Below are positions 8,011-44,945 of a DNA stretch of 64,000 bases, piece by piece. How positions within the stretch are numbered: position 1 is the first letter of the stretch; each line of letters starts with the position of its first letter. Both the position numbers and the translations under genes were made by a program. The notes below the pieces were generated by a model, which was not told the DNA's origin, searched no databases, and was given only the letters and a program-made list of their open reading frames with translations. Source of the DNA: Clostridiales bacterium (GTDB lineage Bacteria; Bacillota; Clostridia; Christensenellales; Borkfalkiaceae); contig SVIG01000005.1 in the NCBI GenBank assembly GCA_015071005.1, forward strand, positions 62,001 to 126,000. The letters run 5' to 3'.

Positions 8011-8242
8011 CATTGCCGACGAAGTCGGCGTGAATTGCCTCTGACGGTGCGTGAATTGAGAGCCGTTGGTTCTCGTGAATTGAATTGCTTTCAACGAAAG
8101 CAATTCGTTACTGAAATATATAAAACATTCCGCAACGCATTGCGTAGAAATGCAATTCACGAACGCAAAGCGTTCAATTCACTGAGCGAAGCGAAAATTC
8201 ACGCGTTGCACAGCAACGCAATTCACGACGGCAAACGCCGTC
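8011..8242. repeat. Hairpin array 1 (behind the yfbR-like gene)
   Basis: About eight short hairpins with mostly 3-base loops follow each other, separated by GTGAATTG or CAATTCAC. Examples are GCCGAC-GAA-GTCGGC, GAACGC-AAA-GCGTTC, GCGTTGC-ACA-GCAACGC and GACGGC-AAA-CGCCGTC. The centre is AT-rich (GAAATATATAAAACATTCCG) next to a long hairpin around GAATTGCTTTC. It is the reverse complement in layout of the arrays at 41942 and 44677, and it ends 12 bases before the stop codon of the minus-strand gene at 8255. Confidence 0.85.
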
Positions 8243-8254
8243 CATCCCCGCCCA

Positions 8255-8839
8255 TTAGAACCCTTCGAGTTCGTCCAAGCTCAATTCAAACGACGGAATA
8301 AATTTTTCGAAGAAATATTCCACTTCGGGCATTTTACGACTGTGCAAGTCCTCTTCGATACTCTTTTTTGCCTTAGAAAACTCGGTGTTGCCCAAGCGGA
8401 TTTCTTCCAAGCACTTGATATACGCCGCGAGCCTATCCGCCGCCTTCACAAGCTTATATTCCACGCTCGTTTCGTCCGCGTTGATATAGGGCGCAATCCC
8501 GCCCTGCATTTCCTTCGGCAGCATACCCGTAATCTTTTCGCAAGCGCGTTTTTCCAGTTCCTTGTACGCGCCGTGAATACTGCTATTGTAGTACTTAATC
8601 GGCGTGGGCAAGTCCCCCGTCATAACCTCACTCGTTTCGTGGTACATCGCGTAAAGCACCGTCTTCAAAACGTCCGCATTGCCGCCGTAAATATCGTTAT
8701 GAACGGTCGCCAAAGCGTGCGCAAGCAGCGTAACCGACTGCGTGTGCTCCATAATATTCTCTTCGCGCGTCGAGCGCATAAGTTGCCAGCGCTTGATGTA
8801 CTTCATTCTATCCATATACGCGTAAAAATCGTACCGCAT
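8255..8839 (-). CDS. HD-domain 5'-deoxynucleotidase, YfbR-like
   Basis: 194 residues. The opening RWQLMRSTREENIMEHTQSV is the YfbR signature, with the substrate Trp/Arg region and the first metal His in MEHT. The HD-domain pair follows in AMYHETSEVMTGD, then LPTPIKYY, and a later Asp in KAADRL. YfbR enzymes dephosphorylate deoxynucleoside 5'-monophosphates and feed nucleotide salvage. The size equals the E. coli enzyme (about 199). The gene stands alone. Directly behind its stop lies hairpin array 1, which would be part of its 3' untranslated RNA. Confidence 0.88.
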   Translation of the reverse strand: MRYDFYAYMDRMKYIKRWQLMRSTREENIMEHTQSVTLLAHALATVHNDIYGGNADVLKTVLYAMYHETSEVMTGDLPTPIKYYNSSIHGAYKELEKRACEKITGMLPKEMQGGIAPYINADETSVEYKLVKAADRLAAYIKCLEEIRLGNTEFSKAKKSIEEDLHSRKMPEVEYFFEKFIPSFELSLDELEGF

Positions 8840-8869
8840 AATTTTTTTCTCCTTTTTTTCTTCAAACCG

Positions 8870-8898
8870 TTGACTTTTCGGTTTTTGTGGATTATAAT
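8870..8898 (+). promoter_or_regulatory. SigA-type promoter of the thiT transcript
   Basis: TTGACT (8870-8875), 17-base spacer, TATAAT (8893-8898), directly before the TPP riboswitch. Confidence 0.85.
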
Positions 8899-8920
8899 GG
8901 GATTACAAAATTTAATGAAT

Positions 8921-8995
8921 CCGTCGTGGGTGCCTTACAAAGGCTGAGATTATACCATTTGAATCGGCAAGGTAATACTTGAGCGAGAGATAGAT
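8921..8995 (+). promoter_or_regulatory. TPP (thi-box) riboswitch
   Basis: The aptamer core is recognisable: GGGTGC, then GGCTGAGAT, ATACC, GAATCGGCAAGGTAAT and the closing ACTTGAGCGAGAG. These are the conserved blocks of thiamine pyrophosphate aptamers. It lies between a promoter (8870-8898) and a terminator hairpin (9051-9087), ahead of a ThiT-type thiamine transporter. The expected behaviour is transcription attenuation when TPP is abundant. Confidence 0.88.
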
Positions 8996-9050
8996 ATCCG
9001 TTTTCCGTCCGTGCGCTTTTCGCGCGTACCGTTCGGCAAAAAGGTTTTTT

Positions 9051-9087
9051 GCACCCACCGTTTTTTAGGTCGGGTGTTTTCTTTTTG
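9051..9087 (+). terminator. Expression-platform terminator of the TPP riboswitch
   Basis: GCACCCACC pairs with GGTCGGGTG around TTTTTTA and is followed by TTTTCTTTTT. It ends about 30 bases before the thiT start and is the probable OFF structure. Confidence 0.8.
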
Positions 9088-9116
9088 GATAACGAGCGAC
9101 GGAAAAGGAGTGTTTT

Positions 9117-9821
9117 ATGTATCTTTATTCCCTGCTGGAAGTCAGCGCAAAAACGACGAACTTCGTCAAGTGGTGCTCCGTTGCCGCCGCGATTATCCTT
9201 CTTGTAATCATCGGCTTTGTCGGACTTGCAAGAAAAGCGGCGGGCGCGCGTAAGTACGATACCAAACGTATCGCCTTTGCAGGCGTTTGCGTCGCTTCGT
9301 CCTTCGTGCTCGCGCTCATCAAGTTCAAGCCCATCGAATACGGCGGCTCGATTACGCTCGCTTCCTTCGTGCCTATCCTTATCTACGCGTACGTGTACGG
9401 CGCGGCGGACGGCTTCATCGTCGGACTTATCCACGGACTTTTGAACTTCATCGAATCCCCGTATATTCTCAACGCGGCAACCTTTATTTTCGATTATCTG
9501 CTCGCGTTTATGAGCGTGGGGATTATGGGTTTCTTCGGCAAAATGCGCCGTAAAGAGAACGCCGCTTTGCCCATCGTTTTGGGCTGTATTTGCGTATTTT
9601 CCGCACGGTTTATCGCACATCTTGTTTCGGGAATGGTATTCTTCACGGAAAACTCCGTTTGGGTGTCCTTACCCGACTGGGCAATGGGCAACGCCTTCGC
9701 GTATTCCTTTATCTACCAATGCGTTTACATCCCTGCCGACGCACTCATCGCGACCCTGGTGCTTGTCTTTATCGCAAAAAGCGGACTTTTGAACAAGCTC
9801 ACCAAAATCATGCACCGTTAA
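9117..9821 (+). CDS. thiT: Thiamine ECF transporter S component ThiT
   Basis: 234 residues. An N-terminal extra helix (about 18-40) precedes the S-component core of six helices. Diagnostic ThiT-like segments are GGSITLASFVPI, GFIVGLIHGLLNFIESPY and FIFDYLLAFMSVGIMGFFG, then RFIAHLVSGMVFF. ThiT binds thiamine outside the cell and passes it to the shared ECF energising module. The TPP riboswitch directly upstream supports thiamine or a precursor as substrate and predicts repression by TPP. No thiamine-biosynthesis gene is adjacent. The gene is closed by a terminator at 9832-9857. Confidence 0.9.
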   Translation: MYLYSLLEVSAKTTNFVKWCSVAAAIILLVIIGFVGLARKAAGARKYDTKRIAFAGVCVASSFVLALIKFKPIEYGGSITLASFVPILIYAYVYGAADGFIVGLIHGLLNFIESPYILNAATFIFDYLLAFMSVGIMGFFGKMRRKENAALPIVLGCICVFSARFIAHLVSGMVFFTENSVWVSLPDWAMGNAFAYSFIYQCVYIPADALIATLVLVFIAKSGLLNKLTKIMHR

Positions 9822-9831
9822 AACAGCCTTT

Positions 9832-9857
9832 CAGCCTTCCTTCGGGAAGGCTTTTTT
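9832..9857 (+). terminator. Intrinsic terminator after thiT
   Basis: GCCTTCC-TTCG-GGAAGGC followed by TTTTTTC. Confidence 0.9.
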
Positions 9858-9866
9858 CTTGCCCTT

Positions 9867-12578
9867 TTAATACCCCTGCCGTCTTAATTCTTCATACCAT
9901 TTTTTGCCGTCGGCATGTCCTTGGTCGGCGGCTTTTTTATACCAGCTTTTCGCCGTAGCATAATTTCTCGTCACGCCTTCCCCGTTATGGTAGCAAACGC
10001 CTAAAAAATATTGCGCACTCGCATATCCTTGATTTGCCGACAGACGGTACCATTTCACCGCTTCCACATAGCTTTGCGCTGCTCCGTTACCATTATAATA
10101 GCAAGTCCCTAAATTGCACTGTGCCTCCGCACTCCCTTTCTCCGCTGATAAACGATACCATTTCACCGCTTCCGCATAATTTTGCGCTACGCCTTCACCC
10201 ATTTCATAGCAAGCGCCTAAATTATATTGTGCGCCTGTATCTCCTTGCTCGGCGGCCATACGAAACCATTTTACTGCTTCCACATAGCTTTGCGCTGCAC
10301 CGTTACCATAATAATAGCAAGTCCCTAAATTGCATTGTGCGCTTGCATAGCCTTGATTTGCCGCCAAACGATACCATTTCACTGCTTCCGTATAGCTTTG
10401 CGTTACGCCGTTGCCTTCATAATAGCAATTCCCTAAATTATATTGTGCAGCCGCATACCCTTGCTCTGCCGATAAACGATACCATTTCACTGCCTCCACG
10501 TAATCTTGCTTAACGCCGTTGCCGTTATCATAGCAATAGCCTAAATTGCATTGCGCATACGCAATCCCTTGCTCTGCCGATAAACGATACCATTTCACCG
10601 CTTCCGCATAATTTTGCGCTACGCCTTCACCCATTTCATAGCAAGCGCCTAAAAAATATTGCGCATACGCAATCCCTTGCTCTGCCGCCAAGCGAAACCA
10701 TTTTACTGCTTCCGCATAATTTTGCACTACACCTTCGCCCAAATAATAGCAAGTGCCTAAATTCCATTGCGCGCCTGCATCTCCTTGCTCGGCTGCCAAG
10801 CGATACCATTTTACCGCTTCCGTATAGCTTTGCGCTACGCCTTCGCCTTTTTTATAGCAATTGCCTAAATTGCATTGTGCATCCGCATCCCCTTGCTCTG
10901 CCGCCAAGCGATACCATTTTACTGCTTCCGTATAGCTTTGCGCTACACCGTTGCCTTTTTCATAGCAATCACCCAAATTGCATTGCGCCACCGCATTCCC
11001 TTGCTCTGCAGAAAGACGATACCATTTCACCGCTTCCGCATAGTTTTGCGCTACGCCTTTGCCATATTCATAGCAAAGGCCCAAATTGCATTGTGGTCTT
11101 GCATAACCTTGTTCTGCCGACAAGCGGTACCATTTCACCGCTTCCGCATAATTTTGCGCTACGCCGTTTCCTTCAACATAGCAATAGCCTAAACCGTTTT
11201 GCGCACTCGCATATCCTTGATTTGCCGACAGACGGTACCATTTCACCGCTTCCACATAGCTTTGCGCTACACCTTCGCCTTTTTCATAGCAAATGCCTAA
11301 ATTATATTGTGCGCCTGCATCTCCTTGCTCGGCGGCCATACGAAACCATTTTACTGCTTCCACATAGCTTTGCGCTGCACCGTTACCATAATAATAGCAA
11401 GTCCCTAAATTGCATTGTGCGCTTGCATAGCCTTGATTTGCCGCCAAACGATACCATTTCACTGCTTCCGTATAGCTTTGCGCTACGCCTTCGCCTTTTT
11501 CATAGCAATAGCCTAAATTGTATTGCGCTCGTGCAAGTCCTTGCTCCGCCGCCAAACGGTACCATTTCACCGCTTCAGTATAGCTTTGCGCTACGCCTTC
11601 GCCTTTATCATAGCAATAGCCTAAATTGCATTGCGCGCCTGCCTGTCCTTGCTCTGCTGCCAAGCGATACCATTTTACTGCTTCCGTATAGCTTTGCGCT
11701 ACACCGTTGCCTTCATCATAGCAAGAACCTAAACAATTTTGCGCCGCTGCGCTGCCTGTTTGCACTTCTTGCTGCAAAATCCGCGCGGCGCGGGCGTGGT
11801 CTTTTTCCATTCCGTAGCCATCTAAAAGGCAGATTGCCAACGCGACGGCGTGCCCTTTTTCCGCGGCGAGCTGATAGCATTTTTCTCCTTTCTTTGTGTC
11901 TATCTTTTTGCGGTTATTGCCCTGCATATAATCACGCGCCAAATAAAAAATTTGCTCGGCGCTCATGCCGTCCGTTTCCGTAGCGGGCTTTACGGGCGAT
12001 ATATTGCTCGGCTTCGCGGTCGGCTCAGACGGCGTATAATATTGCCAAAAAAGATCGTAAAAGGAATTTTTATTTGTGTTTTGAGAAGCTCCCGTTTTAT
12101 TTTCTACGGGCTTTTGCGGCGCAACCGTCTGCGTAACAGGTTTTTGCGGCGCAACCGTCTGCGTAACGGGCGTTTTCAGCCGCAATTTTTGCAAATATTC
12201 CCTTGCTTCGGCGTTGCCGTTATCGGCGGCTTTTTTCAGCCAAAGCATACCTGTTTCTTTATCGGTCGGCATACCCAAAGCGCCTTCTAAATAAAGCTTT
12301 GCCAAGGCAAACTGCGCCCCGATATGCCCTAAATTCGACGCTTTTGTGTACCATTTTATCGCCGAATCGCATAATTCTTTCGGCGTTTTTAATAAAACTC
12401 TACTGCCTGCTTTTATGGACTGCAATTCCGTCAAATCCATTTGCGCCAAAGCACAGCACGCGTCCGCAGAACCTAATTGCGCGGCTTGTTGATATAAGGA
12501 TTTTGCTTTGTCCTTTCTATTCATAGCAAGCTCATGGTCGGCTTGCTCTTTTAATTTTTCTCTCTTTTGGCTTATCAT
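9867..12578 (-). CDS. Giant Sel1-repeat (TPR-like) protein
   Basis: 903 residues without signal peptide. Residues 1-145 contain degenerate Sel1/TPR units. A Thr/Val/Gln/Pro-rich linker (about 147-180) holds a duplicated TQTVAPQKPV. From about 205 to the end there are about 18 Sel1 repeats of 36 residues, each with the pattern GNGVAQSYxEAVKWYRLAA then EQGxAxAQxNLGxCYE. Such solenoids serve as protein-interaction scaffolds. Neighbouring units are nearly identical at DNA level, and a block of roughly 175 bp at about 10230 recurs at about 11310, exactly 1,080 bp or ten repeats away, which indicates recent segmental duplication. It starts 14 bases after the rimM stop with ribosome site AAGGGG, so it sits in the operon position normally taken by trmD. 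Partner unknown. Confidence 0.92.
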   Translation of the reverse strand: MISQKREKLKEQADHELAMNRKDKAKSLYQQAAQLGSADACCALAQMDLTELQSIKAGSRVLLKTPKELCDSAIKWYTKASNLGHIGAQFALAKLYLEGALGMPTDKETGMLWLKKAADNGNAEAREYLQKLRLKTPVTQTVAPQKPVTQTVAPQKPVENKTGASQNTNKNSFYDLFWQYYTPSEPTAKPSNISPVKPATETDGMSAEQIFYLARDYMQGNNRKKIDTKKGEKCYQLAAEKGHAVALAICLLDGYGMEKDHARAARILQQEVQTGSAAAQNCLGSCYDEGNGVAQSYTEAVKWYRLAAEQGQAGAQCNLGYCYDKGEGVAQSYTEAVKWYRLAAEQGLARAQYNLGYCYEKGEGVAQSYTEAVKWYRLAANQGYASAQCNLGTCYYYGNGAAQSYVEAVKWFRMAAEQGDAGAQYNLGICYEKGEGVAQSYVEAVKWYRLSANQGYASAQNGLGYCYVEGNGVAQNYAEAVKWYRLSAEQGYARPQCNLGLCYEYGKGVAQNYAEAVKWYRLSAEQGNAVAQCNLGDCYEKGNGVAQSYTEAVKWYRLAAEQGDADAQCNLGNCYKKGEGVAQSYTEAVKWYRLAAEQGDAGAQWNLGTCYYLGEGVVQNYAEAVKWFRLAAEQGIAYAQYFLGACYEMGEGVAQNYAEAVKWYRLSAEQGIAYAQCNLGYCYDNGNGVKQDYVEAVKWYRLSAEQGYAAAQYNLGNCYYEGNGVTQSYTEAVKWYRLAANQGYASAQCNLGTCYYYGNGAAQSYVEAVKWFRMAAEQGDTGAQYNLGACYEMGEGVAQNYAEAVKWYRLSAEKGSAEAQCNLGTCYYNGNGAAQSYVEAVKWYRLSANQGYASAQYFLGVCYHNGEGVTRNYATAKSWYKKAADQGHADGKKWYEELRRQGY

Positions 12579-12592
12579 TTGTTTGCCCCTTT

Positions 12593-13093
12593 TTATAACA
12601 CCGCGATTTGGTCGAAAACGGCTTTATTGATAATCACTTTGCCATTTTGCAAATCAATATCCACGATTACGCCGTTGACAACGGGGAATAGAATATTTTT
12701 GCCGTCCTTTTCAATCGTGTAAACGTCGCTCGCAAGATTAGAAATTTCTTTCACCGTGCCCAAAAACTCCCCGTCTTGCGTTTCGCAAGGCAAGCCGATA
12801 ATGTCTACGATATAATATCTTCCCTCTTCCAAGGGGGGCGCGTCCTCGCGATCCCCTTCTAATTTTTTGCCGCGGAAAAGCTCCGCCGCGTTTCTATCGG
12901 GTATGCCGCGCAAACCCATATACGCCGCGCCGTCAGGCCCGACTCTAAAAGAAAGAATTTTATACGCAACGTCATCAATATACACCGTGCCAAATTTTTT
13001 TACGTCTTCGGGTGAGTCGGTGAAGGTTTTCACTTTCAATTCTCCGCGAATGCCTTGCGGCTTTAATACTTCGCCAATCATCAAACGATTCAT
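12593..13093 (-). CDS. rimM: 16S rRNA processing protein RimM
   Basis: 166 residues from ATG 13093, chosen because GGAGAG sits 5 bases before it; an open upstream start at 13123 lacks a ribosome site. The N-terminal RimM beta-barrel is seen in IGEVLKPQGIRGELKVKTFTD, and the C-terminal PRC-barrel in YYIVDIIGLPCETQDGEFLG and VYTIEKDGKNILFPVV. RimM binds ribosomal protein S19 and assists maturation of the 30S head. It lies downstream of rpsP and khpA as usual, but the usual trmD and rplS do not follow. Confidence 0.95.
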   Translation of the reverse strand: MNRLMIGEVLKPQGIRGELKVKTFTDSPEDVKKFGTVYIDDVAYKILSFRVGPDGAAYMGLRGIPDRNAAELFRGKKLEGDREDAPPLEEGRYYIVDIIGLPCETQDGEFLGTVKEISNLASDVYTIEKDGKNILFPVVNGVIVDIDLQNGKVIINKAVFDQIAVL

Positions 13094-13162
13094 CTTGCTC
13101 TCCTTATGGGCAAATTCGCGCATTAAACGCGTACCTGCCCCTATGTTTTTTCAAAAAAGGAC

Positions 13163-13197
13163 AAAAAAAGGCTTTGTTTTGCGCAAAGCCTTTTTCG
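13163..13197 (-). terminator. Terminator hairpin between khpA and rimM
   Basis: On the minus strand AAAAAGGCTTTG pairs with CAAAGCCTTTTT around CGCAAAA, followed by more T. It separates khpA from rimM, so rimM may need its own promoter or readthrough. Confidence 0.75.
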
Positions 13198-13208
13198 TAT
13201 AAATCCGA

Positions 13209-13475
13209 TTAGTTTTCGCTATCGCAATCTACGGCTTCGCCATCTCTTTCGCGAATTTCGATCACGTATCTCTTGCTGCTCGCAGGCGTTGCCGCACGTA
13301 CAATCGTACGAAGCGCTTTTGCAATCTTGCCTTGCTTACCGATTACTTTTCCCATGTCGGACGGGGAAAGGACTACCGTCACTTCGATTACGCGGTCCTT
13401 TTCGTTGACTACGTATTCTACGTTTTCCTTGTCTTCCGCAAACTGCCCGACAACGTACTTAATTAAATCCAACAT
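13209..13475 (-). CDS. khpA: KH-domain RNA-binding protein KhpA
   Basis: 88 residues, almost entirely one KH domain. The RNA-binding loop is in SDMGKVIGKQGKIAKALRTI. KhpA (YlqC) works with KhpB/Jag in many Firmicutes to bind RNA and influence cell-wall growth and division. The rpsP-khpA-rimM order is the canonical one. A strong site, AAGGAGACGATAT, precedes the start. The 271 bases between rpsP and this gene are unusually long and hold structured repeats. Confidence 0.93.
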   Translation of the reverse strand: MLDLIKYVVGQFAEDKENVEYVVNEKDRVIEVTVVLSPSDMGKVIGKQGKIAKALRTIVRAATPASSKRYVIEIRERDGEAVDCDSEN

Positions 13476-13746
13476 ATATCGTCTCCTTAACGCTTAAACG
13501 GCGTAATGCGGACAAACTTATCCCTAAAAAGCTATGCTTAAAGGCGCCCGCGAAGGGGGCTGACAAGCGTATATCTTGCCCGCGGTGGCTCACCGCTTAC
13601 ATTTCCGTTCGTCCAAAACGCTTAAACGGCGCAGATACGAGCATCTCAAGGCGCGGCGAGCACTTCCGCAGGGAGCGTACTTGTGCGTACGTGACCAAGG
13701 AGCGCGGAGCCGCAACGCTGAAATGCGACGTATATCCGTCGTTTAA
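13476..13746. repeat. Structured, repeat-rich gap between rpsP and khpA
   Basis: No gene was recognised in these 271 bases. AACGCTTAAACGGCG occurs twice (near 13490 and 13619). The 25-base element CTTGCCCGCGGTGGCTCACC plus GCTTA (13575-13599) recurs exactly at 14201-14225, where its last three bases are the ffh stop codon; it folds as GCGGTG-GCT-CACCGC. The right part contains GCGTACTTGTGCGTACG and other imperfect palindromes. It does not look like a tRNA, SRP RNA or known ribosomal leader. A REP-like intergenic element is the best description. Confidence 0.6.
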
Positions 13747-14037
13747 TTATTTGGATTTTTTGCCTTTCGTCTTGGAAGGGCTAAGCTTGCTGCTTTGTTC
13801 GATAACGCCAGCTTTTACAAGAAGGTTCTTAACCGTTTCGGTGGGTTGAACGCCCTTTGCAAGCCATGCTTTTGCGGATTCTGCGTTCATGTCAAGTTCA
13901 ACGGGATCGCAGGTAGGTCTGTAGTGACCAACGCATTCGATATATTCGCCCGTTGCAGCCTTTCTGCTGTCAACAACAACTACACGGTAGATAGGGTTCT
14001 TCTTGTCGCCCATTCTCAAAAGTCTCATTTTTACCAT
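13747..14037 (-). CDS. rpsP: 30S ribosomal protein S16
   Basis: 96 residues from ATG 14037, chosen for the site GGAGG eight bases upstream and the family start MVKMRLLRMGDKKNP. The S16 core IYRVVVVDSRKAATGEYIECVGHY is intact, with a short basic tail ending SKTKGKKSK. An upstream frame opening at 14154 is spurious. It belongs to the ylxM-ffh-rpsP-khpA-rimM order of Firmicutes. Confidence 0.97.
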   Translation of the reverse strand: MVKMRLLRMGDKKNPIYRVVVVDSRKAATGEYIECVGHYRPTCDPVELDMNAESAKAWLAKGVQPTETVKNLLVKAGVIEQSSKLSPSKTKGKKSK

Positions 14038-14200
14038 AATAATACCTCCAAAGTATCTTAAAATATTTTTTTCTTTTATTTCAATCGGCTCTCGCCGTTT
14101 GATTTTCTTTTGTTTGTTTTCTTTGTGTTTGCTCGCAAAAACAGCGGAGTGCAAGACAAGGAAGGCGCGGATTTGCCAACGGAAATGTGTTTCACTCTTA

Positions 14201-14225
14201 CTTGCCCGCGGTGGCTCACCGCTTA
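14201..14225. repeat. 25-bp hairpin repeat abutting the ffh stop codon
   Basis: Identical to 13575-13599. On the coding strand it reads TAAGCGGTGAGCCACCGC and on, so the stop codon TAA is its first triplet. The same TAAGCGGTGAG begins at the era stop codon (44948), where array 3 starts. Confidence 0.75.
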
Positions 14226-31403: not shown

Positions 31404-31560
31404 AAGTTACCTCCTTTAAGCGTTTTTCCGCCTGACATAAAAAATACCTTATACCGCGCGGCATAAGGACATAAACGTTTCGTGTTTGTATTCCCTCTAC
31501 CTCGGCGAGCGGTTTCCCATTAGATCTTACGATACTCGCTGTCTGCGGTTGATTTTTACT
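31404..31560 (-). promoter_or_regulatory. Ribosomal protein L10 leader RNA
   Basis: On the minus strand the leader holds AACCGCAGACAGCGAGTATC, GTAAGATCTAATGGG, CCGCTCGCCGAGGTA and a later GTGTTTGTA, which are the conserved blocks of the Firmicute L10 leader (the GACAGC and GCCGAGGT elements). The region lies directly between a consensus promoter and rplJ. L10 (or the L10-L12 complex) is expected to bind it and repress rplJL. Confidence 0.87.
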
Positions 31561-31565
31561 ATGCT

Positions 31566-31594
31566 ATTATACCATCTTGCAAAAATCCCGTCAA
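31566..31594 (-). promoter_or_regulatory. SigA promoter of the L10 leader-rplJ-rplL transcript
   Basis: TTGACG (31594-31589), 17-base spacer, TATAAT (31571-31566). Confidence 0.9.
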
Positions 31595-37460: not shown

Positions 37461-37473
37461 TTTTATAGATTAT

Positions 37474-37553: not shown

Positions 37554-37593
37554 CAAAAACGGCTTGCCCGTTAGGACAAGCCGTTTTCTTTTT
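37554..37593 (-). terminator. Intrinsic terminator of ppdK
   Basis: Same 40-base sequence as 35691-35730, placed 17 bases after the ppdK stop. Confidence 0.9.
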
Positions 37594-37609
37594 TAGTTAG
37601 CCTTGCAAA

Positions 37610-40255
37610 TTAGTTGCGAGGGTTTTTAATGTTCGCTTGCGCAGCTGCCAATCTTGCGATGGGAACGCGGTAAGGCGAGCAGGAAACGTAGGAAAGACCG
37701 ATTTCGTGGCAGAATTCGATGGACGAAGGATCGCCTCCGTGTTCGCCGCAGATACCAAGGTGCATGTTGGGACGAACTGCTTTACCGCCGTCAACTGCCA
37801 TCTTCATGAGCTTACCAACACCCGTCGTATCCAATCTTGCGAAAGGATCGGATTCGTAAATCTTGTTTGCATAGTATGCGGGCAAGAATTTACCAGCGTC
37901 GTCACGCGAGAAACCGAATGCCATTTGCGTAAGGTCGTTCGTACCGAAGCAGAAGAATTCCGCTTCTTTTGCGATGTCTTCCGCCGTCAAGCATGCTCTA
38001 GGGATTTCGATCATCGTACCAACTTCGTAGTTGAGCTTGATACCGCTTGCTGCGATAACTTCTTCCGCCGTCTTAACAACGATGTCCTTAACGAACTTGA
38101 ATTCCTTCGTTTCGCCCGTAAGAGGGATCATGATTTCGGGAACAAGGTTCCAATCAGGATGCTTCTTCAATACGCTGATAGCCGCTTTGATAACCGCCTT
38201 CGTTTGCATTACTGCAATTTCGGGATAGGTTACGGTAAGACGGCAACCACGGTGACCCATCATGGGGTTGAATTCGTGGAGACCTTGAATGATGTCCTTA
38301 ATTTGAGCAACCGTCTTATTTTGTGCGTTTGCAAGCTGTTCGATTTCGTATTCGCTCGTAGGCACGAATTCGTGAAGAGGAGGATCGAGGAAACGGATGG
38401 TTACAGGGTAACCGCCAAGCGCTTCGAACAAACCTTCGAAGTCAGCTTGTTGCATAGGTTCGATCTTCGCAAGCGCTGCTTCTCTTTCTTCAACGGTGTC
38501 GGAGCAGATCATTTCACGGAACGCGCCGATTCTCGAAGGATCGAAGAACATGTGTTCCGTACGGCAAAGGCCGATACCTTGCGCGCCGAATGCAACTGCT
38601 TGTTTCGCGTCAGCGGGGCTGTCCGCGTTCGTTCTAATACCAAGCGCTTTGAACTTGTCAGCAAGTTCCATAATTCTGCCGAAGTAACCGGAGTTAGGAT
38701 CAGCAGGAACGGTCTTAATCAAGCCGTCGTAGATATTACCCGTCGAACCGTCAAGGGAAAGTTCGTCGCCTTCGCGGAAGATCTTGCCAGCGAGTTCGAA
38801 GTATTTTTCTTCTTCGTGCATCTTGATATCGCCGCAACCGGATACACAGCACGTACCCATACCACGAGCAACAACCGCTGCGTGAGAGGTCATACCGCCA
38901 CGAACGGTCAAGATACCCTTCGCATATTTCATACCTTCGATATCTTCGGGAGACGTTTCAAGACGAACAAGAATTACGTTTTCGCCCTTCTTGCCTTCGA
39001 TAACAGCGTCTTCAGCCGTGAATACGATCTTACCAGCCGCTGCACCGGGGGAAGCTGCAAGACCTTTACCAACAACGTTGTTCTTGTTTGCTTCTTTGAG
39101 CGCTTTCGCGTCGAATTGAGGGTGAAGGAGCATGTCAAGGCTCTTCGCGTCGATTTGCATTACTGCTTCTTGTTCGGTGATCATACCTTCGTCGATCAAG
39201 TCGCAAGCGATCTTGATAGCAGCCGCAGCCGTTCTCTTACCGTTACGGGTTTGAAGCATGTAAAGCTTTCTATCTTGGATCGTGAATTCCATATCTTGCA
39301 TATCACGGTAGTGATTTTCAAGAATGTTGCAAACTTTAAGGAATTGTTCGTAAACTTCGGGGAATACTTCCTTCATTTGTGCGATGGGCATCGGGGTACG
39401 AACACCTGCAACAACGTCTTCGCCTTGCGCGTTGGTCAAGAATTCACCCATAAGACCCTTTTCACCCGTAGCAGGGTCACGCGTGAACGCAACGCCCGTA
39501 CCGGACGTTTCACCCATGTTACCGAACGCCATCATTTGTACGTTTACCGCAGTACCCCAGCTGTAAGGGATATCGTGGTCCATACGGTAGATGTTCGCAC
39601 GGGGGTTGTCCCACGAACGGAATACTGCCTTAACTGCTTCGAAGAGCTGTTCTTTCGGATCGGAAGGGAAGTCCTTGCCGAGTTGCTTTTTGTATTCTGC
39701 CTTGAACTGATTAGCGAGTTCTTTCAAATCTTCCGCCGTAAGTTCAACGTCTTGCGTAACGCCCTTCTTTTCCTTCATTTCGTCGATGAGCTTTTCGAAG
39801 TACTTCTTACCAACTTCCATTACAACGTCCGAGAACATTTGAATGAAACGACGGTAGCAGTCCCAAGCCCAACGGGGGTTACCGGATTTTGCAGCAATCG
39901 TGTTTACTACTTCTTCGTTAAGACCAAGGTTCAAAATGGTGTCCATCATGCCGGGCATGGATGCACGCGCACCCGAACGAACGGATACGAGCAAGGGGTT
40001 TTCCTTGTCGCCGAACTTCATACCGCAGATGTTTTCCATCTTTTCGATGTATTCCATGATTTCTGCTTGGATTTCATCGTTGATCTTTCTGCCGTCTTCA
40101 TAGTATTGGGTGCAAGCTTCCGTAGAGATCGTGAAGCCTTGAGGTACGGGAAGACCGATGTTCGTCATTTCCGCAAGGTTTGCGCCCTTACCGCCGAGGA
40201 TTTCACGCATTTTCGCGTTGCCTTCGGTGAAGAGATAGCAATACTTTTTAGCCAT
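37610..40255 (-). CDS. ppdK: Pyruvate, phosphate dikinase
   Basis: 881 residues from ATG 40255 (site GGAGGAAAT), standard length. N-terminal ATP-grasp domain (KMREILGGKGANLAEMTNIG, then DTILNLGLNEEVV), central phospho-His domain with catalytic His in GGMTSHAAVVARGMGTCCVS, and C-terminal PEP/pyruvate barrel with RTEHMFF, GHRGCRL and the end CGEHGGDPSSIEFCHEIGLS then YVSCSPYRVPIARLAA. It interconverts pyruvate, ATP and phosphate with PEP, AMP and diphosphate, and acts as a glycolytic enzyme in many anaerobic Clostridia. The frame upstream to 40372 is not coding. It has its own promoter (TTGATA 40406-40401, TACAAT 40383-40378) and terminator. Confidence 0.98.
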   Translation of the reverse strand: MAKKYCYLFTEGNAKMREILGGKGANLAEMTNIGLPVPQGFTISTEACTQYYEDGRKINDEIQAEIMEYIEKMENICGMKFGDKENPLLVSVRSGARASMPGMMDTILNLGLNEEVVNTIAAKSGNPRWAWDCYRRFIQMFSDVVMEVGKKYFEKLIDEMKEKKGVTQDVELTAEDLKELANQFKAEYKKQLGKDFPSDPKEQLFEAVKAVFRSWDNPRANIYRMDHDIPYSWGTAVNVQMMAFGNMGETSGTGVAFTRDPATGEKGLMGEFLTNAQGEDVVAGVRTPMPIAQMKEVFPEVYEQFLKVCNILENHYRDMQDMEFTIQDRKLYMLQTRNGKRTAAAAIKIACDLIDEGMITEQEAVMQIDAKSLDMLLHPQFDAKALKEANKNNVVGKGLAASPGAAAGKIVFTAEDAVIEGKKGENVILVRLETSPEDIEGMKYAKGILTVRGGMTSHAAVVARGMGTCCVSGCGDIKMHEEEKYFELAGKIFREGDELSLDGSTGNIYDGLIKTVPADPNSGYFGRIMELADKFKALGIRTNADSPADAKQAVAFGAQGIGLCRTEHMFFDPSRIGAFREMICSDTVEEREAALAKIEPMQQADFEGLFEALGGYPVTIRFLDPPLHEFVPTSEYEIEQLANAQNKTVAQIKDIIQGLHEFNPMMGHRGCRLTVTYPEIAVMQTKAVIKAAISVLKKHPDWNLVPEIMIPLTGETKEFKFVKDIVVKTAEEVIAASGIKLNYEVGTMIEIPRACLTAEDIAKEAEFFCFGTNDLTQMAFGFSRDDAGKFLPAYYANKIYESDPFARLDTTGVGKLMKMAVDGGKAVRPNMHLGICGEHGGDPSSIEFCHEIGLSYVSCSPYRVPIARLAAAQANIKNPRN

Positions 40256-40377
40256 AATTTTTATTTCCTCCAAATTGATTTTTTCCTGTTTTTGCTTTGG
40301 TATTCGCTTTGAAACAGCGTTTTTTTCTTCTTGTTTTAACAAGAAAAACACGCTTGTCCCGCGGCTCACCATTCTAT

Positions 40378-40406
40378 ATTGTAATACAAAACAAATAAAA
40401 TATCAA
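40378..40406 (-). promoter_or_regulatory. Promoter of ppdK
   Basis: TTGATA (40406-40401), 17-base spacer, TACAAT (40383-40378). The leader of about 115 bases contains the palindrome TTCTTGTTTTAACAAGAA at about 40328-40345. Confidence 0.65.
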
Positions 40407-40494
40407 GCAAAAGTGCGTAAAAAATGATTTTTTTTTGAAAAAGGTAAAAAAAGCTCCCTACAAGGGAGCGCGTGGGGTTTATTCCTTGGAATAC

Positions 40495-40523
40495 TTGACT
40501 TTTTTGAGCGGCTTGTGTATAAT
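40495..40523 (+). promoter_or_regulatory. SigA-type promoter of the AT-rich hypothetical-XRE pair
   Basis: TTGACT (40495-40500), 17-base spacer, TATAAT (40518-40523). Confidence 0.8.
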
Positions 40524-40553
40524 CTTCTTACTATCAAAATAATGGAGTGTATT

Positions 40554-41198
40554 ATGAGTGAGCTTAATCTTTTTGAGGCATATTATAAAAAATGGACAAA
40601 AATAGAAGCTAAATTAAACAAGAAAATAGAAGCCAACCCGAAAAAAGGTAATAAAAAGTTAGCAGTTAAATGCCAAGAATTGATAGATAAAATGAAGGAA
40701 TCCGCAGAGCCCGAAATTCAAAAATTCGAGACAAAACCGCAAATACAAGAAATTATTAAATTTCTTGTCGACAGATTTTCTTTTCTTATTCGCCGTGCCG
40801 ACCGTGCAAACAAATATCCTTCTATTTGCGTAACCTTTGATTTTATGGTGGAATGCAATCAAATTTATTATCTTGAAGAATATTCCCACTATGGAGATAG
40901 AGCATGGCAAAGAATTTGCTTTAATTTCAACGACCATCGCATGGAAGACCTTTCTGAAAAGCAGGTTTTTATTGTTGCACAAACGCTTTTGCGAACGATA
41001 GAAAAAGAATTAAAAAAACAAATTCCCAAAGACAGCAGTGGTACAGAATATAGAATAATCACCAATTTTAGAGAAAAATTGTGCAATTACGTCGAAGATT
41101 TTTCAAACTATAACTCGCACAGCCGTTATTATTTTATCAACTCCACTATGGTATATACTGCAAAAAACGGCTATTACGAAGAAAAATCCACTTGGTAA
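40554..41198 (+). CDS. AT-rich hypothetical protein
   Basis: 214 residues from ATG 40554 (GGAG 8 bases upstream). No signal or membrane segment. Helical, Lys/Glu-rich N-terminus (YYKKWTKIEAKLNKKIEANP), then a mixed part with PSICVTFDFMVECNQIYYLE, RAWQRICFNFNDHRM and YYFINSTMVYTAKNGYYEEK. No family recognised. Codon choice is strongly A/T-ended compared with adjacent ppdK, suggesting recent acquisition. It is followed after 10 bases by an XRE regulator and shares its transcript, a pairing typical of accessory modules. Function unknown; an accessory or defence-related role is speculation. Confidence 0.7.
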   Translation: MSELNLFEAYYKKWTKIEAKLNKKIEANPKKGNKKLAVKCQELIDKMKESAEPEIQKFETKPQIQEIIKFLVDRFSFLIRRADRANKYPSICVTFDFMVECNQIYYLEEYSHYGDRAWQRICFNFNDHRMEDLSEKQVFIVAQTLLRTIEKELKKQIPKDSSGTEYRIITNFREKLCNYVEDFSNYNSHSRYYFINSTMVYTAKNGYYEEKSTW

Positions 41199-41208
41199 GC
41201 ATGCTAAT

Positions 41209-41430
41209 ATGAAAATCGGTGAAAAGATCAAAGAATTGAGAACTGAAAAAGCCTTATCGCAAGCAGAGCTTGGGAAGGCGATAGGCGTTAGCCAAAAGGC
41301 GATTGATTATTGGGAACGTTCCGTGAACGAGCCGAAGATTGGCTACGTTATGACGCTGGTTGAATTTTTCCAAATTTCCTATGACGAATTCTTTGCCGAT
41401 ATTGAAAAGCCCATAATTGAAAAAAATTAA
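41209..41430 (+). CDS. Small XRE-family HTH regulator
   Basis: 73 residues: IGEKIKELRTEKALSQAELG then KAIGVSQKAIDYWERSVNEP is a standard Cro/CI helix-turn-helix; the C-terminus is YVMTLVEFFQISYDEFFADI. It lies 10 bases after the AT-rich hypothetical and is probably co-transcribed from 40495. No palindromic operator was seen at the promoter. It is closed by a terminator at 41429-41457. Confidence 0.85.
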   Translation: MKIGEKIKELRTEKALSQAELGKAIGVSQKAIDYWERSVNEPKIGYVMTLVEFFQISYDEFFADIEKPIIEKN

Positions 41431-41457
41431 AGCTCTCGTTTTTACGAGAGCTTTTTA
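41429..41457 (+). terminator. Intrinsic terminator after the XRE gene
   Basis: AAAGCTCTCG and CGAGAGCTTTTT around TTTTTA. Confidence 0.85.
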
Positions 41458-41467
41458 AGTCTTAAAA

Positions 41468-41770
41468 TTACGCTTGCTTTTCTTCAATTCCTTCATTTTT
41501 CTCCTTTTCTAATCTTTCAATTTCTCTTTTTAGCTTTTTTAATCGTGAATCAGGCGTTATCAAAGAAATAAGTAATATCAATCCCGCCAAGAAACAAAAA
41601 CTAACAGCCATTATTTTTTCGTTTTTATCAAATCCTAAATTTAACCCTATAATTCCCATAATAAAGAAAAAACACGTAATAATTACCGAAAGCCACGCAC
41701 GGAAAATAAGATAATTATATTGTTCTTTTAATAAATCAAGGGGATCGTGCTCCTTAATTTTTTTACCCAT
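41468..41770 (-). CDS. Small two-helix membrane protein with coiled-coil tail
   Basis: 100 residues. Two membrane helices (about 24-46 and 52-71: LSVIITCFFFIMGIIGLNLG and IMAVSFCFLAGLILLISLIT) are followed by a charged helix LKKLKREIERLEKEKNEGIE. The N-terminus is cytoplasmic and charged. No family recognised. It is AT-rich like the convergent pair 40554-41430 and may belong to the same acquired segment. Confidence 0.7.
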   Translation of the reverse strand: MGKKIKEHDPLDLLKEQYNYLIFRAWLSVIITCFFFIMGIIGLNLGFDKNEKIMAVSFCFLAGLILLISLITPDSRLKKLKREIERLEKEKNEGIEEKQA

Positions 41771-41903
41771 AAATACTCCTTATGCTTTCTTTTGTATAAA
41801 TACTGACGATTGATATTTTTTGTGCCCCGAGACGATTTTAATCATAGCATACTATCCTTTATTTGTCAATATTTGCCAACTATATTTTTTCATCGAAATA
41901 AAG

Positions 41904-41940
41904 AAACTCCTGTCGAAAAGACAGGAGTTTTCTTCTTTTT
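41904..41940. terminator. Terminator hairpin behind array 2
   Basis: AAACTCCTGTC and GACAGGAGTTT around GAAAA or TTTTC. On the minus strand it would end the mrr-like transcript after hairpin array 2; the plus strand also has a T-run. Confidence 0.75.
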
Positions 41941-41941
41941 A

Positions 41942-42177
41942 GACCGCTTGGGCGGTTATATGATTGTGAATTAACGGCTATTACCGTTGTGAATTGGTTT
42001 CGCCGTGAATTGCATTACAACGTAATGCGTTGTGGAATTATTTATAATTTTTCCATAACGAATTGCTTTTTACAAAAGCAATTCAATTCACGCGCCGATA
42101 GGCGCAATTCACGCCGACTTTGTCGGCAATTCACGTTTTCGTTAGAAAACAATTCACTTGCAAAGCAAAGCGTTGTC
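41942..42177. repeat. Hairpin array 2 (behind the Mrr-like gene)
   Basis: Left units are introduced by GTGAATT: AACGGC-TATT-ACCGTT, GGTTTCGCC, GCATTAC-AAC-GTAATGC. An AT-rich centre (GGAATTATTTATAATTTTTC) is followed by GAATTGCTTTT-TAC-AAAAGCAATTC. Right units end with AATTCAC: GCGCC-GAT-AGGCGC, GCCGAC-TTT-GTCGGC, GTTTTC-GTTA-GAAAAC. A leading ACCGC-TTG-GGCGGT opens the array. It ends at the stop codon of the mrr-like gene. Confidence 0.85.
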
Positions 42178-43701
42178 TTACAGCATATTGAAAAATGCTT
42201 TCGTGCCCGAAAGGAGTTTTTCGTCCAGCTTCCAGTTCCCGTTTTCGTAAACCAAACCGAACCTACATTCCTTCGCCGCTTCGTATAAATCCGAGCCGTC
42301 GTAGCCGACAATCTTATCCGACATCGTTTCCAAAATCTTCTTCGCTTCGGGTGTAAACCGCGACGCCGTGACAAAAATTCCCCGACAATGCTGTTTTCCG
42401 TCCCTTGCTTGTCTGCACGCACACGCGCCGATAAATTGTTGTAAAAGGGTTTCGCCGACAACCCAATTTTCCTCTTTCCCCTTTTCGGGATCCCAATTTT
42501 TCGACTGCACGTAAATCGTTTCTCTAAAACCGAATTTATCCGTCAATTCGATTTCGCCGTCGATACCGCCGTCATGCTCGCCGCCGTTAATTTTCATTCC
42601 TTCCAAACGTCTGCCGTTTTTCATGGAATAGCGTTCGAGCAGGTACACCGAATAATACTCGAAATAATCCCCGCCGAGCGCGCGAATCCGCTTTAAGAAA
42701 TTCTCTTTGAGCTTTTCGTCCGCGGTAAGCGGTTTTTGCGGCAATTTTCGAACGGTCGGCTTGACGATTTTAATCACTACGTCCGAATTTTTTTGCACCT
42801 TGAATTTTTCCGCTTTCACGGGTGCTTTTTTGGCTTCCGTCGGCTTTTCTTCCGTGGGTTTCGGCTCTTCCTTTTGCACCGCTTGGGGAGTAGGAGCAGG
42901 TTTTTCCTGCGGCTTTGCCTTGCCGCCAAGCAAAAAGCTCATATCCACGAGCGCAGGCTTGACAAGCTCCGCTTTTTCCTTTACCGCAGGCAGATTTTCC
43001 ACAATAGGCTTTTCTTCCGCTTGCTCTTTTTTAGGCTGTTCGACTGCCTTTTCTTCGACTGCTTTTTCCGTTTTCGCAGGCGTTTCTACCGTCGGTTCTG
43101 CCTTGACTTCTTCCTGTGCTGCTTTGGGCTTTCTGCCGCGTTTTTTGGGCGCGGTTTCTTCCAATTTTTCCGCTTTTTCTTCTACGATAATAGCTTCTTC
43201 TTGCTTTGTTTTTTTCGTCGTCTTTTTTGCAGGTTTTTCGTCGGCTTTTTCTTCCGCTTTTGCCGTTTCTTCCGTCGATTTGGTAGATTTTTTCGTTGCC
43301 TTTTTTACGGGCTTTTCTTCCGTTTGTTCGTCCTTTTCTATCGTGGCTTTTGTAGCCGTCTTTTTCACGGGTTTTTCTGCTTTTGAGGCAGGTTTTTCTT
43401 CTACAACGGGCATCATAATACGCGCTTTCAACGCGTACATGCCCCCATCGTACATAATTTCACTGCTCTTTTGCATCGCGTCGAGCACCGAGCCGATTCT
43501 CCCCTTTACGTCGTTGGCGTTTTCGTTGTCCGCTCCGACGTACCGAGCGGAAAAAATCTTCGCTGCGCTCTCGATGAGTTCGTTGTGTTTATGCGGTTTG
43601 ACCGCCAAAAGTTCCTTGATAACGTTTTTTGCCGCGTCCGTTCTTTGGGCGCGCGTAAGAGTCTTTAACTCTTGCGTTTCTTCTTTTTTCTTTCTTGCCA
43701 T
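42178..43701 (-). CDS. Mrr-like restriction endonuclease with winged-helix start and H1-like AT-hook linker
   Basis: 507 residues. Residues about 19-98 look like the winged-helix Mrr N-terminal domain (AAKNVIKELLAVKPHKHNEL and RIGSVLDAMQKSSEIMYDGG). Residues about 100-320 are a very long Lys/Ala/Glu/Pro/Thr linker with KPVKK repeats and an AT-hook-like KKRGRKPK (186-193). Residues about 330-507 form an Mrr-type PD-(D/E)XK nuclease: GGIDGEIEL with Asp381, then YVQSKNW (Gln399, Lys401), LLQQFIGACA and GIFVTASRFTPEAKKIL. Mrr proteins cut methylated DNA or otherwise act on DNA; the catalytic motif is intact here. The gene is upstream of hairpin array 2 and directly follows recO on the same strand (56-base gap). 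A role in defence or in DNA repair is possible. Confidence 0.85.
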   Translation of the reverse strand: MARKKKEETQELKTLTRAQRTDAAKNVIKELLAVKPHKHNELIESAAKIFSARYVGADNENANDVKGRIGSVLDAMQKSSEIMYDGGMYALKARIMMPVVEEKPASKAEKPVKKTATKATIEKDEQTEEKPVKKATKKSTKSTEETAKAEEKADEKPAKKTTKKTKQEEAIIVEEKAEKLEETAPKKRGRKPKAAQEEVKAEPTVETPAKTEKAVEEKAVEQPKKEQAEEKPIVENLPAVKEKAELVKPALVDMSFLLGGKAKPQEKPAPTPQAVQKEEPKPTEEKPTEAKKAPVKAEKFKVQKNSDVVIKIVKPTVRKLPQKPLTADEKLKENFLKRIRALGGDYFEYYSVYLLERYSMKNGRRLEGMKINGGEHDGGIDGEIELTDKFGFRETIYVQSKNWDPEKGKEENWVVGETLLQQFIGACACRQARDGKQHCRGIFVTASRFTPEAKKILETMSDKIVGYDGSDLYEAAKECRFGLVYENGNWKLDEKLLSGTKAFFNML

Positions 43702-43757
43702 TTTGGTTTCCTTTTTCGTTTTTTTCGTTATCGCCTGAAACCAAATGGAGCAGGCGA

Positions 43758-44486
43758 TTAACCTTCTTCGTATAAACGAAGAAACTCGCCGAGGTTTTTA
43801 TACTCCTCCTCGGTCTTGTCCACGAGAAACGCTTTCAAAAGGCGTAAGGCGCGTTTTTTGCCGCCTGAAAGTTTTTCTTCATCGTAAGTGAGCCCTGCGC
43901 ATTTGCGCAAGGTGTGATAAGTAGATAAGCTTGCCCGTTCACCGCGTACGCAACGGTCGAACGTGGAAAACCGTCCGTCCGAGAAATCGAACCATACTTT
44001 GTCGCCGATATCCCCGCCGCATTCTTCCAAAAAGGATAAATCAAGGGGATAGCCGCTTTCACGCAAGGCAATGATGAGAAAGGAAACGAGCGCTTCCGCC
44101 GGATCGTCCTCACTCAACGAAAGGGCTTTCAGGCACTCGATAAGTCCGATAAAAAGCCCCTCGTAATGCTCGTTTTCCGTGAGTACTACTCGGCATACTT
44201 CCGTCGCCGCGCAAGCGGCGTAAAACCGCTCGATATCGTAGCGCAAGGAAAAGAAGCTTTCGTGCAAGTACGCGCCCGTGACCGTGTACCTGCCCCCCTT
44301 CTCCGCCAAAACGTACTCGGAAAAACAAAAGGGTTGGGCGGCAAACGCGAGCTTTGCCGTCGGCTTTTTCACACCCTTTGCCCCTGCCGTGATTTTGCCC
44401 AAGGACGGGGAAAAAAGCGTAAGGATTTTGTCGTTATCTTTATAATCGACCGTTTGTAAAACGATGGCGTCCGTTTTGATTTCCAT
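43758..44486 (-). CDS. recO: DNA repair protein RecO
   Basis: 242 residues. N-terminal OB fold with DAIVLQTVDYKDNDKILTLF then SPSLGKITAGAKGVKKPTAK, followed by the helical domain (AACAATEVCRVVL, ALRESGYPLDL). RecO anneals SSB-coated strands and loads RecA with RecR. The usual four-cysteine zinc site seems incomplete: only EECGG and DRCV keep cysteines. It follows yqzL and era in the classical order. One GGGGGCAGGTACACGG motif copy lies inside, read as G-G-R-Y-T. Confidence 0.94.
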   Translation of the reverse strand: MEIKTDAIVLQTVDYKDNDKILTLFSPSLGKITAGAKGVKKPTAKLAFAAQPFCFSEYVLAEKGGRYTVTGAYLHESFFSLRYDIERFYAACAATEVCRVVLTENEHYEGLFIGLIECLKALSLSEDDPAEALVSFLIIALRESGYPLDLSFLEECGGDIGDKVWFDFSDGRFSTFDRCVRGERASLSTYHTLRKCAGLTYDEEKLSGGKKRALRLLKAFLVDKTEEEYKNLGEFLRLYEEG

Positions 44487-44519
44487 ACTTTTTTCCCTTT
44501 GCTTGTGTTTTTTGACCGT

Positions 44520-44633
44520 TTACTTTTTTCTTGTTAAATCGTAATAGAGCATATAATAGCTGATGCTGCCCGTTTTTTCAAAGAGCTCCCAAGCCATTTT
44601 CGCAGCGCCGTTTTCATCCCGTCTATCTCGCAT
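44520..44633 (-). CDS. yqzL: YqzL-family small protein
   Basis: 37 residues: MRDRRDENGAAKMAWELFEK then TGSISYYMLYYDLTRKK. The W-ELFEKTGSISYYMLY core matches the YqzL pattern (aromatic, F-x-x-TG-x-I-x-x-Y-L). It is too short for usual gene calls but has GGGGGGAGAG before ATG 44633 and sits exactly where yqzL lies in Bacillota, between era and recO. The function of YqzL is unknown. Confidence 0.82.
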   Translation of the reverse strand: MRDRRDENGAAKMAWELFEKTGSISYYMLYYDLTRKK

Positions 44634-44676
44634 ATACTCTCTCCCCCCATTCACAGTTTGCGTGGGGAAAAAGGGT

Positions 44677-44945
44677 TTTATGCAAAGCATAAAAAAGTGA
44701 ATTGAACGCTTTGCGTTCGTGAATTGCGTTGCTCTGCGCCGCGTGAATTGACGGCTACCGCCGTCGCGAATTGCAAGGCTATGCCTTGCGTTGTGGATTT
44801 ATTTATATATTTTTCCATAACGAATTGCTTTTCAAGAAAGCAATTCAATTCACGAGAGCCAACGGCTATCAATTCATGCCGACTTTGTCGGCAATTCACG
44901 TTTTTCGTCAGAAAACAATTCACTCGTAAAACGGTAACTCACCGC
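44677..44945. repeat. Hairpin array 3 (behind era)
   Basis: It opens with TTATGC-AAA-GCATAA. Left units after GTGAATT are GAACGC-TTT-GCGTTC, GCGTTGCTCTGCGCCGC, GACGGC-TACC-GCCGTC and GCAAGGC-TAT-GCCTTGC. The centre is GTGGATTTATTTATATATTT and then GAATTGCTTTTC-AAG-AAAGCAATTC. Right units before AATTCAC are AGCC-AAC-GGCT, GCCGAC-TTT-GTCGGC and GTTTTTCGTCAGAAAAC. It ends in ACGGTAACTCACCGC at the era stop codon. Orientation matches array 2. Confidence 0.85.

Follow-up and report, generated by a model that had tools for sequence, protein, structure and literature searches.

The window analysed here, a 64,000-nucleotide stretch of a Clostridiales bacterium genome (positions 62001-126000 of contig SVIG01000005.1; genome of 1,687,223 bases in 12 contigs, 93.86% complete), contains three arrays of short hairpins that are separated by a constant 7-base word, the tag GTGAATT. 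These arrays are probably non-autonomous copies of a mobile-element family that is bordered by heptamers and, in its gene-bearing versions, encodes a protein of family PF05635, a small four-helix bundle associated with intervening sequences of 23S ribosomal RNA. That the arrays and the PF05635-bearing elements form one family is well supported, as both share the tag, the plan, and the genus. An original prediction made from the sequence of the window had described the three arrays with their GTGAATT and AATTCAC spacers, the first one being inverted, and we find them as described. The PF05635 partner and the link of heptamers to this gene in other phyla are not visible from the window, and they shift the reading to non-autonomous mobile-element copies.

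In the window arrays, GTGAATT stands before every hairpin left of a core and AATTCAC after every hairpin right of it. Stems measure mostly 5-8 bp and loops 3-4 bases. Array 2 (41966-42157, plus strand), with hairpins between its tags, carries GTGAATT at 41966-41972, 41989-41995, and 42005-42011 and AATTCAC at 42085-42091, 42106-42112, 42128-42134, and 42151-42157; in its core (42029-42059), a loop is enclosed by GTTGTGG (42029-42035) and CCATAAC (42053-42059). Array 3 (44697-44923, plus strand) has left tags at 44697-44703, 44719-44725, and 44743-44749 followed by a degenerate GCGAATT (44766-44772), a core (44790-44821) of GTTGTGG (44790-44796), an AT-rich loop, and CCATAAC (44815-44821), and right tags at 44847-44853, 44871-44877 (degenerate, AATTCAT), 44893-44899, and 44917-44923. 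Array 1 (8008-8242, minus strand) lies in inverse orientation, with a degenerate GTGCATT at 8008-8014, GTGAATT at 8030-8036, 8051-8057, and 8075-8081, and AATTCAC at 8154-8160, 8176-8182, 8196-8202, and 8220-8226. Its core (8107-8136; GTTACTG at 8107-8113, AT-rich loop, CCGCAAC at 8130-8136) is adjoined by a long hairpin, GAATTGCTTTC...GAAAGCAATTC (8082-8106), and one side holds five hairpins. Some tags are thus degenerate, and one hairpin word, TGAGCGAAGCGAA / TTCGCTTCGCTCA, forms a poor stem, yet is found again in several copies. On both strands of the window GTGAATT occurs 31 times, with 20 occurrences inside the arrays (shuffled sequences: mean 11.5, maximum 22). A role as DNA uptake word was rejected, since the 11 of 31 occurrences outside the arrays correspond to the background level (11.5 expected).

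Across relatives, the plan consists of four units of tag plus hairpin, the word GTTnnGG, a loop, the word CCnnAAC, and the inverse of the four units. Four hairpins are present in 139 of 206 half-arrays, a count that takes in decayed halves, three in 38, two in 21, and five or more in 8. From 58 parsed cores, 14 were recognized as false parses by reading of the table, and the remaining 44 were sorted by hand. Position 4 of their two core words is nearly always mismatched, with G/A in 38, A/A in 4, A/T in 2, and G/G in none, which amounts to a conserved G/A mismatch. Some genomes carry other cores, for example GTGATA...TATCAC in G153 (by eye). Moreover, the core loop of one array (L186, ~670-790) holds a hairpin with a T-run that resembles an intrinsic terminator. 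The window hairpins themselves were rejected as transcription terminators, as no T-run was seen after them on sequence reading, the basis of this judgement in place of a scan.

Arrays fall into tag classes. An exact-heptamer scan of 2.03 Mb yielded two-sided arrays only for GTGAATT, GTGAAGT, GTGAAAT, GCGATAT, and reversed AATTCAC; much of this sequence was fetched by GTGAATT, GTGAAAT, or Gut-1 queries, so that other tag classes are under-sampled. Both halves bear the identical tag class in 64 of 75 arrays, and 8 of the 11 mixed arrays belong to a single genome (G022). At two loci (L122 and L124), the arrays carry the tag the other way round, with AATTCAC to the left and GTGAATT to the right.

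The connection to PF05635 emerges from relatives in which the loop holds a gene. At locus L322 (G006), a loop of ~400 bases encloses an open reading frame (ORF) of 117 amino acids that matches PF05635 (E 6e-24) and TIGR02436, four helix bundle protein. Of the 57 genus genomes, 21 gave a PF05635 match in a family search, 20 of them above cut-off. Tested for units of one heptamer, 18 of the 27 genus loci above cut-off show at least four tagged hairpin units within 420 bp, compared to 0 of 36 control stretches placed at random in the sequence of the window, away from its arrays. By eye, these 18 comprise eight loci with the ORF between two half-arrays (L415, L417, L418, L419, L424, L425, L429, and L435) and ten with the ORF just after a whole array. 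Further tags, among them GTTATAT, GTTATGA, and GATGATA, lie beside PF05635 genes. Some PF05635 elements (L416, L421, L423, L431, and L436) are located directly 3' of genes resembling those of transfer RNA (tRNA) or transfer-messenger RNA (by eye).

Tag class follows the phylogeny of the protein. In a tree of 26 genus PF05635 proteins, built by a quick method with 5 of 23 inner branches strongly supported, the tag classes as assigned by eye require 10 changes, which is the minimum; shuffled assignments require 18.0 on average, and 0 of 200 were as low. The association extends to the order, where PF05635 is found in 25 of 33 genomes with at least five array matches vs 80 of 362 others (Fisher p 8e-10, uncorrected for kinship, with the two 395-genome sets taken as identical and 96 of 105 PF05635 hits above cut-off). 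By sequence, the nearest solved structures to the PF05635 protein are 2rld and 2gsc, not a chain of Avd. PADLOC assigned no family, and in open-licence literature, nothing in the titles and abstract openings among the matches listed joins PF05635 with heptamer or hairpin arrays.

Several observations weigh against the arrays being copies of a PF05635 element. No PF05635 match is found in the window's own genome, which holds ~23 arrays and is 94% complete, nor in array-rich G049 and G022; across the order, 8 of 33 array-rich genomes, the own genome among them, are devoid of PF05635, while 80 genomes have PF05635 but fewer than five GTGAANT matches. In the genus, 9 of 27 PF05635 loci fail the hairpin test (by eye, four have sub-threshold repeated tags, four have hairpin-less tags, and one is cut by a contig end). 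In the order, 24 of 30 loci, the best-scoring ones taken one per genome, fail it and 6 pass. The GTGAATT group in the protein tree has a support of 62 only, and gene and array are physically linked, so that the agreement of tag and tree could reflect mere co-inheritance. Further, eight arrays in G022 join a GTGAATT half to a GTGAAAT half, and perfect pairing of the halves is consequently not required; the halves are modular to some degree, with cross-half pairing being usual and mismatch tolerated. No consistent target-site duplication was detected, as 4-5 base matches occur in only 7 arrays at varying offsets, and an exact empty site could not be delimited. Array junctions shared across species could be old functional loci rather than insertions. 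Between close copies, one-sided stem changes outnumber two-sided ones (24 and 17), and plain period 7 appears at only 3 of 26 genus PF05635 loci, where hairpins split the tags.

Compensatory variation of the stems, which the original prediction had read from three arrays, is real and strong. Among 480 tagged segments from 20 genomes, 344 are distinct, with 166 distinct 5' arms; in the distinct segments, 1734 of 1901 stem pairs (91%) are Watson-Crick. Re-dealing the 3' arms among segments of equal length reduced this to 875-904 pairs (~47%) in five trials. Within species, 20 array pairs that are at least 85% alike provided 64 differing hairpins, in which 95 changes affect the loop; in the stems, 24 changes are one-sided, 17 are two-sided, and 4 are double changes of another kind. 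Many one-sided changes trace to a single word exchange (GTCGC/CTCGC). The freely varying loops and the two-sided changes are what one would expect if template switching during replication made and corrected quasi-palindromes as a mutational by-product, with no mobilizing protein involved. This process leaves the constant tag, the usual four units per half, the core words, the clean-ended dispersal, and PF05635 in the loop unexplained, and we regard it as highly improbable as an account of the arrays.

The mispairs bear on the level at which pairing is maintained. RNA under compensatory evolution usually accumulates many G-U and few A-C pairs. Counted by tag orientation, the stems contain 31 G-T and 37 A-C mispairs; on the sense strand of co-directional arrays (1301 pairs, segments with more than two mismatches dropped), there are 23 G-T and 14 A-C, both rare and with no clear excess of G-T (p 0.19). 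A tRNA control for this comparison comprised only 2 tRNAs and was not usable. The near-equality is more in keeping with the DNA level or with paired copying than with selection in RNA, and thereby lowers the prospects of a structured RNA, in which a half or the whole tree would be transcribed to serve as a regulator, as a sponge, or as a stability element of an mRNA, with pairing selected in the transcript. Such an RNA would agree with the predicted RNA folds (z -9.2 and -14.5), with the placement of 66 arrays between co-directional genes among the 86 whose neighbours were called on both sides, and with the orientation of the half carrying the long hairpin, which in the own genome is turned towards the end of the upstream gene in 11 of the 16 co-directional arrays that could be scored (7 of 23 unscored, p 0.21). 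It would also agree with the RNA candidate Gut-1, marked 'Y' and not cis-regulatory in a 2010 table (PMC2864571). Taken together, we consider the structured RNA unlikely.

Folds were predicted for three arrays (z -8.8 to -14.5, with array 2 at -9.98 as DNA), and no shuffled sequence folded equally well. The folds are tree-like, with four-way junctions nested within one another, and the tags of the two halves pair with each other. Most but not all four-way junctions form in each predicted fold: the outer hairpins are paired together in L326 and in the RNA fold of L182, the centre refolds in L182 as DNA, and the trunk is partly open in array 2 of the window.

Beyond the hairpin form, PF05635 genes are bordered by plain heptamers. 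At many other loci of the order, tandem heptamers lie on one side of the gene and are inverted on the opposite side (13 loci read). With three contig-end loci left out of the 30, period 7 is present in the PF05635 flanks at 17 of 27 order loci, compared to one each among 60 random places and 30 era flanks. At these 27 loci, lag 7 was counted 17 times, lag 14 12 times, and lag 8 once, while all other lags between 4 and 15 scored zero. The window arrays themselves have no plain period 7, as their 7-base linkers are split by hairpins. Exact inverted heptamers, at least three each way, occur at 8 of 27 order and 10 of 26 genus loci vs 0 of 60 random places and 3 of 30 era flanks. A test allowing one mismatch per heptamer was uninformative (PF05635 loci 25/27 and 28/30, controls 15/30 and 33/60), and the above analyses of period and exact copies took its place. 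Heptamers also border PF05635 genes in cyanobacteria, Chloroflexota, and Treponema. Among the plasmid relatives listed, most stem from Nostoc, Planktothrix, and other cyanobacteria, and others from Chlorohelix and Treponema. In a set of 16 loci (12 of 25 plasmid records and 4 of 7 viral loci; L472, L476, L477, and two phage records left out), period 7 is present at 13, and two or more exact inverted heptamers lie on either side of the gene at 13; by comparison, of 125 other genes taken from four of the same plasmids, 3 show period 7. L478 and L479 share the heptamer CAATTCG, which is plain in one locus and separated by longer, apparently self-complementary inserts in the other. On cyanobacterial plasmids, a PF05635 gene with heptamer-like borders lies between cas2 and cas1 (L483 and L484), and at L487, one with heptamer borders is placed between drmD and a pglX gene in a defence cluster.

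Searches of the genome and of relatives revealed many copies besides the three predicted from the window. The own genome contains ~23 arrays, the window's three included, parsed with at least four tags out of 17 fetched stretches. BLAST with array 2 gave 33 matches there, and the pattern of two tags spaced by 8 to 38 bases gave 58 forward and 57 reverse matches, compared to none in either direction for the reversed pattern. At least one GTGAATT pair is present in 38 of 57 genus genomes and at least 16 in 14; the one or two pairs in many of the remaining genomes may be chance. In the order, a triple GTGAANT unit occurs in 66 of 395 genomes (40 of 140 genera), with five or more in 33 genomes. 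The reversed control pattern is rare except in G086 (8 and 13 matches), which suggests another repeat class there.

Arrays are intergenic: with a home-made gene caller, 0 of 103 lie within called genes, and their neighbours are co-directional in 66, convergent in 17, and divergent in 3, with one side uncalled in 17. At 130 gene ends whose 3' side faces an array, the tag supplies the stop codon in 9 and abuts it in 5, and an A directly precedes the terminal tag at 94 of 140 ends. The window arrays sit between protein genes, not in 23S rRNA; rRNA genes were not searched for. The gene whose 3' end faces array 3 (44946-45839, minus strand) is putatively era, presumably with yqzL and recO downstream. 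In G049, two elements (L189 and L190) are 95% identical, and the 20 bases on either side differ. Comparison of flanking genes across species identified 35 array pairs at shared junctions, some resting on one flank only, 9 of which are between or with era loci that were fetched on purpose. At the era junction, GTGAATT, GTGAAGT, and GCGATAT arrays are found in five species. This occurrence of different classes at one junction, as well as the absence of arrays from called genes, could indicate host-useful intercistronic sites for nucleoid, supercoiling, or transcription functions that are mere landing places for a separate PF05635 element. Such sites would have to accommodate the patchy presence of arrays (5 of 30 era junctions, by eye in the stretch inspected), the agreement of tag class with the PF05635 tree, and the heptamers flanking this gene in other phyla, and we judge them very unlikely as an explanation. 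Downstream of era in G020 (L356) and G016 (L363), at the junction that carries arrays elsewhere, there is a long imperfect palindrome with a GTGGC...GCC-like core that lacks tagged hairpins.

Known systems reproduce parts of this anatomy. The original prediction had held that no repetitive extragenic palindrome (REP), clustered regularly interspaced short palindromic repeats (CRISPR), or miniature inverted-repeat transposable element (MITE) plan fits the arrays, which our comparison upholds. REPs and bacterial interspersed mosaic elements are likewise described as extragenic palindromes with a short tag at the hairpin foot in head-to-head groups (PMC3733652), whereas their tag is GTAG or CGTC as opposed to the longer 7-base tag here, which also comes with a usual four-plus-four plan. 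Mobilization by a Y1 (HUH) transposase of the REP-associated tyrosine transposase kind would suit this layout and the Y1_Tnp hits in array-bearing G047, G022, and G069. However, no such gene (PF01797) is found in the own genome (94% complete) nor in array-bearing G051, G006, G017, G059, and G008, while G045, G054, G058, and G071 have PF01797 with at most two GTGAATT-pair matches each, leaving no clear correlation in the genus. We therefore give this route hardly any credence. MITEs of a DDE transposon were rejected, as no consistent target-site duplication was found; gene-bearing versions of the arrays do exist, and their gene is PF05635, not a known transposase. CRISPR was likewise rejected, given a constant part of only 7 bases and intervening parts that are hairpins; cas genes were not searched for. 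Integron attC sites, with consensus cores RYYYAAC ... GTTRRRY, were dismissed because the core words of the arrays face the opposite way, GTT outside on the left and AAC outside on the right.

The proposal of a wholly undescribed element was not supported. Half of array 2 (42080-42159, minus strand) resembles Rfam family Gut-1 (RF01706), scoring 38 bits against a gathering threshold of 50 (E 3e-06 with 249 bases searched), although the window has no RF01706 match at the gathering cut-off. In the genus, Gut-1 matches 16 of 18 genomes at E 0.1 and 6 of 18 above cut-off, compared to 2 of 14 controls and none above cut-off. Gut-1 shares with the arrays three tandem hairpins with GUGAAAU linkers, the array 2 alignment showing GUGAAUU, whereas it is described as a 77-nt RNA and the arrays are 4+4 palindromes of several tag classes with many copies per genome. 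It appears to correspond to a portion of a single half of the 4+4 palindromic element. Gut-1 was published in 2010 as a candidate RNA; the table in that study classes it as certainly RNA and as found in human gut only (PMC2864571).

Intervening sequences (IVS) of 23S ribosomal RNA (rRNA) show the second resemblance. In one species, a PF05635-type ORF of a 23S rRNA IVS is preceded by tandem heptamers, and the solved IVS-family protein is a homopentamer of four-helix bundles (PMC4990558). Like IVS/S23p, the gene-bearing elements at 8 of 27 loci of relatives have their ORF in a loop closed by self-complementary sequence; unlike them, the arrays examined lie between protein genes, with a hairpin after each tag and many copies per genome. 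Third, the heptameric repeats described in Xanthomonas and Nostoc come preferentially in runs of four units, are enriched in non-coding regions, and in Xanthomonas often form inverted pairs, with a role that 'remains to be elucidated' and generally no link to mobile elements found by the authors; the portion of this study available to us mentions no hairpins between units and names no protein partner (Rehm et al, 2015; PMC4692102). PF05635 has further been stated to resemble Avd, the accessory protein of diversity-generating retroelements (PMC10053308). No reverse transcriptase stood out when the gene-bearing elements were inspected by eye; no search aimed at one was made. A CRISPR survey lists 23S rRNA IVP among CRISPR-associated domains in a figure legend (PMC10910872); insertions between cas1 and cas2 might explain this association.

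For the arrays as non-autonomous copies of a PF05635 element, the following mechanism can be envisaged. Each half comprises about four units of a 7-base tag plus its hairpin and ends in a fifth 7-base word, the core word GTTnnGG. The two halves face each other around a loop, with the PF05635 gene in this loop or just beside the array in gene-bearing relatives. The PF05635 protein likely acts on the tags. We infer that it binds them and mobilizes the element; it may recognize the tags that belong to its class when the single strand, be it DNA or RNA, is folded, and drive or assist copying into new intergenic sites. Selection would then act on tags and pairing only, and stems would drift as both arms change together. 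Outside this group, in further families and phyla, PF05635 genes are often bordered by tags alone, as plain inverted heptamer repeats. Whether the arrays of the own genome still move is doubtful, because no PF05635 gene is detectable there. If the mechanism applies, what is preserved in the element is its structure and its tag, not the sequence of its stems. The mechanism may also provide a reason for PF05635 genes inside operons, even between cas1 and cas2.

We further put forward a broader interpretation, to which we assign slightly less than an even chance: an unrecognized class of mobile elements in several phyla, in which PF05635 recognizes and moves inverted runs of 7-base words, with heptamer repeats, IVS, Gut-1, and the present arrays as its forms and Avd as a domesticated cousin. 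Its five sites per half, four units and the core word, could perhaps correspond to one per subunit of the homopentamer, and stem-loops would optionally be grown between the 7-base words. Bacterial heptamer repeats, IVS proteins, and Gut-1 RNA, three loose ends with no known function, would thus meet in one anatomy, and the small protein and its 7-base word are a directly testable pair.

Two minor features of the window complete the description. A ~95-base tandem repeat lies directly ahead of array 1 (7803-8000), where GGCTGAGCC begins at 7803, 7898, and 7993. Finally, a ribosomal protein L10 leader (Rfam RF00557) is located at 31431-31566.

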